A DNA stretch of 64,000 nucleotides, from assembly GCF_000430625.1 (NCBI RefSeq), contig NZ_AUMJ01000035.1:1-64000 (forward strand), written 5' to 3'. Both the position numbers and the translations under genes were made by a program. Every line of letters begins with the position of its first letter. Position 1 is the first letter of the stretch. The notes under the pieces were generated by a model. The model worked only from the letters and a program-made list of their open reading frames with translations. It had not been told where the DNA came from and ran no database searches. This DNA is from Aneurinibacillus terranovensis DSM 18919 (GTDB taxonomy: Bacteria > Bacillota > Bacilli > Aneurinibacillales > Aneurinibacillaceae). Below are positions 655 to 41,366 of the stretch, one piece after another.

Positions 655-1591
655 AGGTTGAAGCGACTTGACGAATCAGTTCAGGGTAAGCTTCTACAGT
701 GAGCCGCAGATAATGCTGAGTAGCAGCGACGGAGGTATGCCCGAGATAAGTGGATAGAATCGGAAGTGCGCAATAAATGTCGATGCCGTTTTGGGTTTGG
801 CTGGCTAGCGTATGCACACAGAACGTATGACGCAGGTCATGCAATCGAGGTCCGTTTCCTTTGCCGCCATGGGAGATCCCGGCTTTCCATAAAAGTGTCC
901 TGAACGTTTTGTAAACCTGGTCGCGCGACAAGGGAGTGCCTCGTTTGTTTCGGAAAAAATAATCGTTTGGCGACGTATTGTTGTTAAACCGGGCATCATA
1001 ATCGGCAAACATTTGCCAAAGGCGCTCCGACAGGGGAATCAAGCGATCCTGGTTGAATTTGGAGGCACGAATAAATACCACGCCGGCAAGCAGATCCACA
1101 TCGGATTTTTTGAGATGGATCGCCTCTGAAATCCGCAGTCCACAACTGTACAACAGGCGCAGCAACAAAGGGAAGACCTCTTTTTTACTCGAAAGACGAT
1201 GTGCCGACATACCATCGCATGCATGAAAGAGACGGTTGATTTCGTCGTGAGTAAAGATATAGGGAATAAAGTCGCCGCGGCTCACTTTACGCTTTCCCGG
1301 TGGAATAAACGCATCATATCCGTTATCTTGCATATACAAAGCAAATTGACGAAGGTCACTGGCGCGATGCTCCCATGTTCGTACACTCTCATTCTTTCTT
1401 CTTTCCGTCCAATCCAGCACTAATCGTTTGGTCAGGGATGGCGTCTTCATCGCATACGGTATCGAAAATTCTGAAAACCTGCGGAGATTTTCGCTGGTTG
1501 TCTCGTATTTGTAGCCCAAGCTCATTTTAAGCCGGACAAAATCCTGTAGAAGCGCTGCAAACGGGCCGGAAAATCGGGCTTCTTTCTTCAC
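572..1591 (-). CDS. Tyrosine recombinase, second gene of a RIT-type trio
   Basis: A complete site-specific recombinase of about 339 residues. It has an N-terminal SAM-like core-binding region (first ~100 residues), then the catalytic domain with Arg in SCGLRISEA, HDLRH, LGHTS and a Tyr in TQHYLRL. I prefer a GTG start at 1591, because GAGGAGGTG lies about nine bases upstream and the preceding recombinase stops at 1594; an in-frame TTG at 1621 is the alternative. The gene lies between two other tyrosine recombinases in the same direction with almost no spacing. This is the arrangement called RIT (recombinases in trio), where the three proteins are thought to act together in moving the element. 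Exact site specificity cannot be told from sequence. Confidence 0.85.
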   Translation of the reverse strand: MKKEARFSGPFAALLQDFVRLKMSLGYKYETTSENLRRFSEFSIPYAMKTPSLTKRLVLDWTERRKNESVRTWEHRASDLRQFALYMQDNGYDAFIPPGKRKVSRGDFIPYIFTHDEINRLFHACDGMSAHRLSSKKEVFPLLLRLLYSCGLRISEAIHLKKSDVDLLAGVVFIRASKFNQDRLIPLSERLWQMFADYDARFNNNTSPNDYFFRNKRGTPLSRDQVYKTFRTLLWKAGISHGGKGNGPRLHDLRHTFCVHTLASQTQNGIDIYCALPILSTYLGHTSVAATQHYLRLTVEAYPELIRQVASTCAHIFKKQNGSPHEADGSAFKPVSGRK

Positions 1592-1593
1592 GA

Positions 1594-2766
1594 TCAGAAC
1601 ACCTCCTCGCCCTTGTTCCAATCGAACGGTGGCGGAGTCAAGGCACAGTTTCTGAGTTGTTGAATATCTATTTGCAAATACACGGAAGTGGAGGCGGTTC
1701 GGGTATGTCCCAGTATCTCTGAAATGACGGGCAGCGGCGTCTTTTCTTCCAATAAAGCACTGGCCAAACTGTGGCGTAGGGCATGAGGCCCGTGCCGCTT
1801 GCCATCCACAATCTTGATCCCGGCTTTCCTTAAATAATGGGTCACAATGCTGTGCAGCGTAGGCGCTTCTAATTTCCCTATAGGTGGAATAAGGCGAAGA
1901 AAAATCGCATTCGTTGTTGTGCAGTCCGGTCTTGCGTATTTGAGATAATCAATGAGCGCCAGTCCGATGTCCTCCAGCAAGGGAAGAATCATTGGCTTTT
2001 CGGTTTTGGCCTGAATGATTTCAATCGTGTTCTTCTCCCACTTCACGTGTTCAAACGTGAGGTCACAAATGTCCTGAGCTCGCAGCCCTAGCCTGGCCGC
2101 AAGCAGCAGGATAGCATAATCACGTTTGCCCTTTGGATTTCCGCGATCAACACACTGCAATAACTTTTGTACATCTTCTTTGGGATAGGCAGAGGGCACT
2201 TTGGTTCTGCTTCTGTAACCGTCCCGCGGGACGATATAGGCGTAATCCTTTGGCGTAAGCCTCTGTTGAAACAGATAATGAAAAAATGTCCGCAGAGCGC
2301 AGAGCGTACAGTGGATCACGGCGGGAGAATAATTCGTGAATGTCTGGATGAAGCCGAGAACCAGATTATCATGTAAGTCTTGTATTCGCTGTATGCCGCG
2401 GCTATGGAGATAGTCGGAGAAACGATCCAGATAGATGGCAGCGGACTGGATTGTATCGGCAGCAAACCCTTCTGCCTGTCGCTGATCCAGATAGTTTTGA
2501 AACACCGTCTGAAATTGAGGATGAAAAACGTGTACTTTTCGCTTTGCTTTCGCGAGGATGATGCCGTGCTGCTGGTAGTCTGTCAGTACATTCACGGCTC
2601 GGGCGCAAATGGCCAAATTGCGGGGCAAGTTGCGAAAGGCCGTAATCTCGTAGACTTCTTCCAAAAAATCAAGTCCCATTTTGGCGTTGAGGAATTCTGA
2701 TGGAGCGATCGATGAAATACATCGTTTTTCTGGAGGAGCCGCAAGGCTGATTAACAAGCTGTGCAC
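1594..2766 (-). CDS. Tyrosine recombinase, first gene of a RIT-type trio
   Basis: Tyrosine recombinase of about 390 residues with all catalytic landmarks: Arg in ARLGLRAQD, HALRH, LGHTRT and Tyr in TSVYLQI. The N-terminal ~200 residues form the usual core-binding domain. It is the promoter-proximal gene of the trio, and its stop sits two bases before the likely start of gene two, so the two are surely translated together. The start is uncertain. The longest frame begins at GTG 2766 without a good ribosome site; an internal Met at 2679 (MGLDFLEE) is possible. Upstream of it lies the truncated ABC ATPase gene, with the presumed right end of the element between them. Confidence 0.83.
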   Translation of the reverse strand: MHSLLISLAAPPEKRCISSIAPSEFLNAKMGLDFLEEVYEITAFRNLPRNLAICARAVNVLTDYQQHGIILAKAKRKVHVFHPQFQTVFQNYLDQRQAEGFAADTIQSAAIYLDRFSDYLHSRGIQRIQDLHDNLVLGFIQTFTNYSPAVIHCTLCALRTFFHYLFQQRLTPKDYAYIVPRDGYRSRTKVPSAYPKEDVQKLLQCVDRGNPKGKRDYAILLLAARLGLRAQDICDLTFEHVKWEKNTIEIIQAKTEKPMILPLLEDIGLALIDYLKYARPDCTTTNAIFLRLIPPIGKLEAPTLHSIVTHYLRKAGIKIVDGKRHGPHALRHSLASALLEEKTPLPVISEILGHTRTASTSVYLQIDIQQLRNCALTPPPFDWNKGEEVF

Positions 2767-22185: not shown

Positions 22186-22410
22186 TCAGGCGGCAAAGCT
22201 GTTTGCTTCAGAATTTACGACTTTTGGTTGGTCTCCATTTGTGTGATTGTCTTCATTTTTTTGTGTGTCTTCATGGTCTTTTGCCATAAGTTTCCCACGC
22301 TCTTCAAAAGAATCATGAAACGTATAAACTCTTCCTTTATAGTTAAAAGAGCCAAACCCGTGGAAATATGGATTTCGGCTCGCGTAGAAATACGTTAAGT
22401 TTTTGATATC
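22186..22410 (-). pseudogene. Second unidentified coding fossil
   Basis: A minus-strand frame of 75 codons, opened only by a stop at 22411, reads LTYFYASRNPYFHGFGSF, then NYKGRVYTFHDSFEERGKLM and an acidic Asn-rich tail ending NSFAA. No start codon occurs before Met at codon 40. The balanced composition suggests the C-terminal end of a real protein. Family unknown. Confidence 0.4.
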
Positions 22411-22476
22411 TCAAAGCAACGAAAGCCCTGCCTCTCTTTCATCCTTACGGCTCCGATGACCGCGCCAGTGTGAATT

Positions 22477-22671
22477 GGGCTAACAAAAATATATAACGAC
22501 GTAACCTTTCTTGCTCAATTTTCTGTGTTTTTACATGGAATAAACGAAGAAATAGAATCGAAAAAGGAAGGTATTTTTTATGGAGGAATGATTACTTCTG
22601 AAGCAACTAATTTATTGTATACCACTATGTTTATAAAAGCAATAGAACATTTTATAAACCCTGCACATTAA
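22477..22671 (+). pseudogene. Third unidentified coding fossil
   Basis: A plus-strand frame without a start reads YNDVTFLAQFSVFLHGINEE, then IESKKEGIFYGGMITSEATN and FIKAIEHFINPAH before TAA 22671. Its Met at about 22588 has TATGGAGG in front and would give 27 residues. It may be a remnant or a small gene; I do not recognise it. Confidence 0.3.
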
Positions 22672-40598: not shown

Positions 40599-40609
40599 TA
40601 TAATAAAGT

Positions 40610-40818
40610 GTGGAGTGTAAAATCTCAGTCCGGTTGGTAGTCCGGACGCATGCGTTGGCGAAAAATCCCGGTGCGTGTAAGTAGCCTTCCCCCCTCGGGA
40701 TGTCCGTCACTCTTATGTTTTTAGAGGGGGGACTAGCAACAACGAGATGATGCTGCCACTAAGTGTAAAAAACATAAAAACCCCGATTTCGGCTGAAAAA
40801 GATCGAAATCGGGGTTTT
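40610..40818 (+). ncRNA. Candidate structured small RNA (~205 nt)
   Basis: No protein is encoded. A TATAAT precedes and a strong terminator ends it. Pairings seen by eye: TCCCCCCTC (40688-40696) with GAGGGGGGA (40724-40732), perfect 9 bp; TTATGTTTTTA (40713-40723) with TAAAAAACATAA (40766-40777); ATCTC+AGTCC (40622-40631) with GGACT (40730-40734) and GAGAT (40744-40748); GTCCGG with CCGGAC; ACGCAT with GTGCGT. Some exclude each other, so it may switch. The last helix lies beside the terminator, as in riboswitches. No known class that I can name matches. Confidence 0.6.
40779..40818. terminator. Terminator of the structured RNA
   Basis: AACCCCGATTTCG (40779-40791) pairs with CGAAATCGGGGTT (40804-40816), followed by TTTT. 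On the minus strand it also ends the remnant at 40820. Confidence 0.92.
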
Positions 40819-40819
40819 A

Positions 40820-40942
40820 TCATTGGTTTTGCGTCTCCTGATCCGGCGGTGGCGATGCCGCAGTATTAACAGCAGCATTCGTGGTTGTATCGGTTACGTT
40901 CGACGTCACACCGGTAGTTCCTTCATCCAAAACCTGGTTCAA
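40820..40942 (-). pseudogene. Short Thr/Ala/Pro-rich gene remnant
   Basis: A minus-strand frame (TTG 40942) reads NQVLDEGTTGVTSNVTDTTT, then NAAVNTAASPPPDQETQNQ and stop. No ribosome site precedes it. It looks like the C-terminal tail of a lost gene using the shared terminator. Unidentified. Confidence 0.4.
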
Positions 40943-41033
40943 AAAAAAATTTCAACAAGTATCATAAAAAATCAAAAACGGCGAACAATAATTTACGGTA
41001 TCAAAAACAAAAATTTGTCTAGGAGGAATTTTC

Positions 41034-41366
41034 ATGCCAAACAGCGCTCTTTACCAACAATTGAACCAATGCATACAAATTGTGAGTCAGCTGATGCAAA
41101 GGGAGCAACAATCCGCTCAAATGTTCCAGCAGTCTCTACAACAAGAGCAGCAAAATGCAGTCACTCTGCAGCAGCTCGTCCAAAGAGAACGTGAAGCAGC
41201 GCAAATTGCCCAAACTGCGCTTCGCGACAGTCAAATGTTTATGCAAGAACTGCAGCGTGTTCTGCAGACGTGTCAACAGATGGAAGTGAATATGCGTGCA
41301 ATGGAACAGGTGGTAGCCAGTGCGGCTGCCGTCAATCCACAGGGATTCCAGTATCGTCAACACTAA
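41034..41366 (+). CDS. Gln-rich coiled-coil small protein
   Basis: A 110-residue protein, nearly all helix, with Gln making about a quarter of it (QQSAQMFQQSLQQEQQN, QREREAAQIAQTALRD). The heptad pattern of Leu, Met, Val and Ile suggests a coiled coil; the end (NPQGFQYRQH) is loose. AGGAGGAATTTT precedes ATG 41034. In spore-formers such proteins are often coat or crust components (glutamine can be crosslinked by transglutaminase), and the next gene remnant is CotF-like, so a spore role is a fair guess. Not recognised as a named family. Confidence 0.68.
   Translation: MPNSALYQQLNQCIQIVSQLMQREQQSAQMFQQSLQQEQQNAVTLQQLVQREREAAQIAQTALRDSQMFMQELQRVLQTCQQMEVNMRAMEQVVASAAAVNPQGFQYRQH

Follow-up and report, generated by a model that had tools for sequence, protein, structure and literature searches.

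What is the structured RNA that occupies positions 40610-40818 of the stretch of Aneurinibacillus terranovensis DSM 18919 DNA analysed here (64,000 nucleotides; the window), and what does it regulate when no protein-coding gene is evidently attached to it? An earlier note, made from the sequence alone, had described a free-standing structured RNA of unknown class, with a promoter, a terminator and about 205 bases without protein between them. No open reading frame (ORF) of at least 60 aa starts inside the RNA on the plus strand, in agreement with the last of these points.

The question of class is settled by a covariance-model search of the window. RF01764, the azaaromatic riboswitch aptamer (yjdF RNA) of Rfam, matches positions 40607-40723 of the plus strand over its full model (1-101) with 75.7 bits (gathering score 45; E 2e-13). 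This is a clear, full-length match to a known family, and the description as an unknown class falls on the very ground that the earlier note had named. Riboswitches of this class sense planar azaaromatic compounds, that is, flat molecules with nitrogen rings. The window RNA is almost certainly a member of the class (PMC4793209; structure, PMC10987639; tRNA-like fold, PMC9142559), and a genome search shows it to be the sole RF01764 copy in its genome. All other Rfam matches in the riboswitch region lie far below their own cut-offs, and no 6S family is found among the matches with E up to 10, which leaves the suggested divergent 6S RNA without support. Elsewhere in the window, at 22406-22493 on the plus strand, Rfam detects the small RNA BsrC (RF01410; 79.8 bits, cut-off 38).

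The four helices of the class, P1 to P4, are all present on the plus strand between 40612 and 40713, and the structured, riboswitch-like character first proposed is thus upheld. P1 pairs 40612-40617 with 40708-40713 (98.5% of cells paired; 5 of 6 pairs changed on both sides), P2 occupies 40628-40647 (98.5% of cells paired) and carries the invariant T-loop-like loop UUGGUAGU at 40634-40641, and P3 is a hairpin at 40649-40677 in which all 5 counted pairs have changed on both sides. P4 (40688-40691 with 40697-40700, within 40688-40700) includes the strand UCCCCCCUC, which is complementary to the ribosome binding site (RBS) as in the rest of the class. The window also shares with the class the loop GGUUGGUAGUCC, the J3/4 segment GUA.CCUUCC and GGGAUGUCC; the invariant L2 loop UUGGUAGUCC and the J4/1 GUCC, which form the pocket floor in RF01764, are both in place. 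When the window element and 21 relatives (22 sequences) were aligned and scored on the stated P1-P4 structure, 97.4% of cells are paired and 15 of the 21 pairs have changed on both sides, against a mean of 9.0 in shuffled alignments, none of which (0/500) reaches 15; the compensatory changes by which a structured RNA was to be recognised in relatives are therefore found. The covariation score is 0.535, against 0.204 in shuffles. The signal is destroyed when the 3' partners are slid by 1-3 columns, a control that leans towards the drawn P1-P4 structure because this was taken from the Rfam consensus and the window. Upstream, a perfect TATAAT at 40599-40604 of the plus strand, about 7 bases before P1, is a probable -10 element from which the RNA would be transcribed, and a -10-like hexamer lies within the 42 bases upstream of 42 of the 56 riboswitches of the class-wide sample described below. 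The -35 is weak, and for this reason a generic promoter scan called no consensus promoter before the riboswitch.

Regulation in this class is translational: without ligand a strand of P4 pairs with the RBS, and ligand binding frees the RBS, giving an ON switch (PMC4793209, PMC9142559, PMC10987639). The 9-bp helix with a C6/G6 core noticed earlier is present, between UCCCCCCUC (40688-40696) and the RBS-like GAGGGGGGA (40724-40732, plus strand), and is the usual OFF state of the class, in which the P4 strand sequesters the RBS, not an antiterminator. This complementarity is beyond chance, at least 9 pairs being reached in 0.125% of 20,000 shuffles of the 3' part. Moreover, an exact anti-RBS:RBS complement of at least 7 bases (1.6% of shuffles) is kept in 52 of 66 relatives with yjdF, and since the anti-RBS sequences differ among them (e.g. 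CCCCCTC, CCTCCTC, CCTCCTT), it is the pairing itself that is conserved. The mutually exclusive helices and the alternative pairing of the G-run, both of which had been pointed out, are real and correspond to the aptamer P4 versus the P4-RBS pairing, in which the G-run pairs with the P4 strand over 9 bp. In the unliganded RNA, UCCCCCCUC would pair with GAGGGGGGA as in an ordinary translational platform, and a bound planar azaaromatic ligand would allow the aptamer to form (P1, P4 and the L2-J4/1 contacts) and free the RBS. As a class member the window riboswitch adds little; it is notable solely for the absence of its gene.

The yjdF profile PF11208 (DUF2992) was not found in the window's genome, which is assembled in 98 contigs with 100% estimated completeness; the same search was positive in 4 of 11 family genomes and in two control genomes, B. 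subtilis among them. A profile search revealed no convincing yjdF match downstream of the riboswitch, and no recognisable yjdF remnant is seen in the window. One frame before the terminator-like hairpin, RDDAATKCKKHKNPDFG followed by a stop codon, loosely resembles the C-terminus of YjdF (KxKHKGK); it is not claimed as a 3' remnant because the agreement extends to only about three residues and the profile gives no match at this place. The word free-standing is therefore true in effect, because the cognate yjdF is absent, but by descent the element belongs to a 5' UTR and is not a free RNA.

Such contexts are uncommon. An RF01764 element was found in 56 of 400 genomes of a class-wide sample, with yjdF directly downstream in 51 of the 56 riboswitches; downstream contexts other than yjdF were very rare in the original survey (PMC4793209). 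The five members without yjdF are the window, L012 (from G002, of the same family), L013, L089 and L090, and a phylum sample, from the scoring of which the unanchored locus L108 was left out, provides two more, L106 (G772) and L112 (G421). The four lowest-scoring elements of the whole class sample are among these five (32, 45.7, 63.7 and 66.5, with the window at 75.7), as expected under relaxed selection. At L089 (G343; 1501-1660, reverse strand), the riboswitch and its intact RBS are followed by a yjdF cut after 12 codons (MKLTVFHDGQFW) and then by unrelated sequence. This is direct evidence of cognate-gene loss and a precedent for the window. The two elements belong to the same class and neither has an intact cognate gene, but L089 keeps the first 12 codons of yjdF whereas the window keeps none.

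Apart from the absence of yjdF downstream and in the genome and a terminator-like hairpin after the RBS, the window differs from the class by substitutions in the ligand pocket: A15→U and A17→U in J1/2, and A→G in J3/4. The J1/2 pocket strand (40619-40626, plus strand) reads AAAAUCUC where relatives have AAAAACAC. Its conserved motif AAACAC has become AAUCUC, and the conserved pocket wall ACAC thus reads UCUC; among the 68 sequences carrying the motif, AAACAC occurs in 63, AAUCAC in 4 and AAUCUC in the window only. In the crystal structure, A15 and A17 of J1/2 line the ligand pocket and A17 pairs with U58 of L2 (PMC10987639), the numbering used here resting on our own alignment to the description of the structure in that paper, not on coordinates. 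A17→U is confined to the window among these 68 sequences. A15→U is also seen in L089 and in L004, and since yjdF is intact in L004 the aptamer may still bind. The conserved A of J3/4 that is G in the window is also G in one intact relative. These changes fit an aptamer under relaxed selection, and they may have altered its specificity.

The reading that we favour, with a probability of roughly 0.78, is that of an azaaromatic riboswitch with an ordinary platform, orphaned by deletion of yjdF, whose aptamer is beginning to decay; given class membership, orphaning and decay are together likely. Because yjdF is absent both here and from the rest of the genome, such a deletion has most likely orphaned the element. 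The deletion itself is something that we infer, since no recognisable remnant marks it in the window. After the loss, the riboswitch would have remained, would make at most a short RNA ending near 40818 and may have begun to lose its aptamer. The RBS and anti-RBS, which decay need not spare, are intact and strong, and this argues against decay.

The neighbourhood bears on how the gene disappeared. The only other genome of the genus that was compared (G001) has the same flanking genes as the window, for an aspartate kinase, an RNase H-like protein and an alpha-amylase-family protein, the RNase H-like protein having related loci in other Bacillales genera (42-58% identity). In G001 about 60 bases and no riboswitch separate the RNase H-like and alpha-amylase-family protein genes, whereas in the window some 1.3 kb between them hold the riboswitch, the hairpin, a 43-codon open tail on the minus strand and a 110-aa ORF. 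Three other family members have the riboswitch with yjdF, and no copy at the same locus was seen among the family genomes compared. From these two genomes, the 1.3-kb island was either inserted in the window's genome or lost in G001. The combination of an orphan regulatory element and a gene tail suggests that the locus has undergone rearrangement and decay. As an alternative to deletion of yjdF, an insertion may have brought the region in together with another partner gene.

The alternative that survives best, although it is unlikely, is that the azaaromatic riboswitch still works but controls a new target, for which the retention of the RBS-anti-RBS pairing at 9 bp and the existence of other riboswitches without yjdF (L012, L106, L112) would speak. 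There is no start codon at the usual distance after the RBS at 40724-40732. The sole ATG frame after it (40747-40869, plus strand, 40 codons), whose 40-aa peptide is one candidate target, begins at a spacing of 15 bases and runs through the terminator, and is probably not a gene. The other candidate, a glutamine-rich ORF of 110 aa at 41034-41366 (plus strand), lies about 215 bases past the terminator, has a good RBS of its own (AGGAGG) and shows no Pfam, NCBIfam or family relatives. It is likewise unlikely that the riboswitch still senses a ligand, its specificity changed by the pocket substitutions, and now drives expression of a new gene or short peptide.

It is also quite improbable that the 5' UTR has turned into a trans-acting small RNA ending at the 40818 terminator. 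The promoter-like -10, the terminator-like hairpin and the lack of a protein between them would suit this explanation, but the short form is not conserved, no same-locus copy was seen in the family and the plus-strand U-tract is weak. The hairpin, bidirectional and terminator-like with 15 bp (40777-40818; -25.9 kcal/mol predicted), was not called by a generic terminator scan because the scan accepts loops of up to 8 bases and this one has 12. Of its two U-tracts, the one on the minus strand (UUUUUAUGUUUUUU) is stronger than that on the plus strand (UUUUAUCAUU), and the hairpin may therefore serve mainly the minus strand, where the 43-codon open tail at 40820-40951, possibly the end of a lost convergent gene and with no relatives in the family, ends at it. 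Least credible of all is the original proposal of an unknown class, a 6S-like RNA or an antiterminator: strong alternative helices do exist, but Rfam assigns RF01764, and antitermination through pairing of the G-run with the terminator CCCC was rejected on energy, the forced structures (-61.8 to -63.6 kcal/mol) lying more than 20 kcal/mol above the minimum-energy fold (-85.8).

A different departure from the class is seen in the same family. A sister genus carries an azaaromatic riboswitch without yjdF or RBS pairing (L012 1501-1640, G002:C4:29619-29760; also L091). Like the window, it is an aptamer without yjdF and its sequence is closely similar, but in place of the RBS it has a perfect 11-bp terminator hairpin (GCCACUCUAAGCUUGUUUUAGAGUGGC) with U6, and the next gene is that of a PAS histidine kinase. 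Because this hairpin reuses the 3' strand of P1, a ligand-stabilised P1 would prevent termination, and the arrangement suggests a possible transcription-terminating variant of the class. With a terminator in competition with P1, this copy would represent a transcriptional form of a class that has been described as translational; a literature search returned nothing directly on a transcriptional azaaromatic riboswitch or on orphaned riboswitches. L012 is a more novel lead than the window riboswitch, and the one to pursue.

To our knowledge, neither the natural ligand of the azaaromatic class nor the function of YjdF has been established. Each of the rare contexts without yjdF (5 of 56 in the class sample) either documents the loss of a gene or points to another target. 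If the window riboswitch does still sense a ligand and drive a new short peptide or gene, then it and the terminator-type riboswitch of G002 would mean that the family has recruited the azaaromatic aptamer to control targets besides yjdF, and this would provide a handle on the natural ligand.
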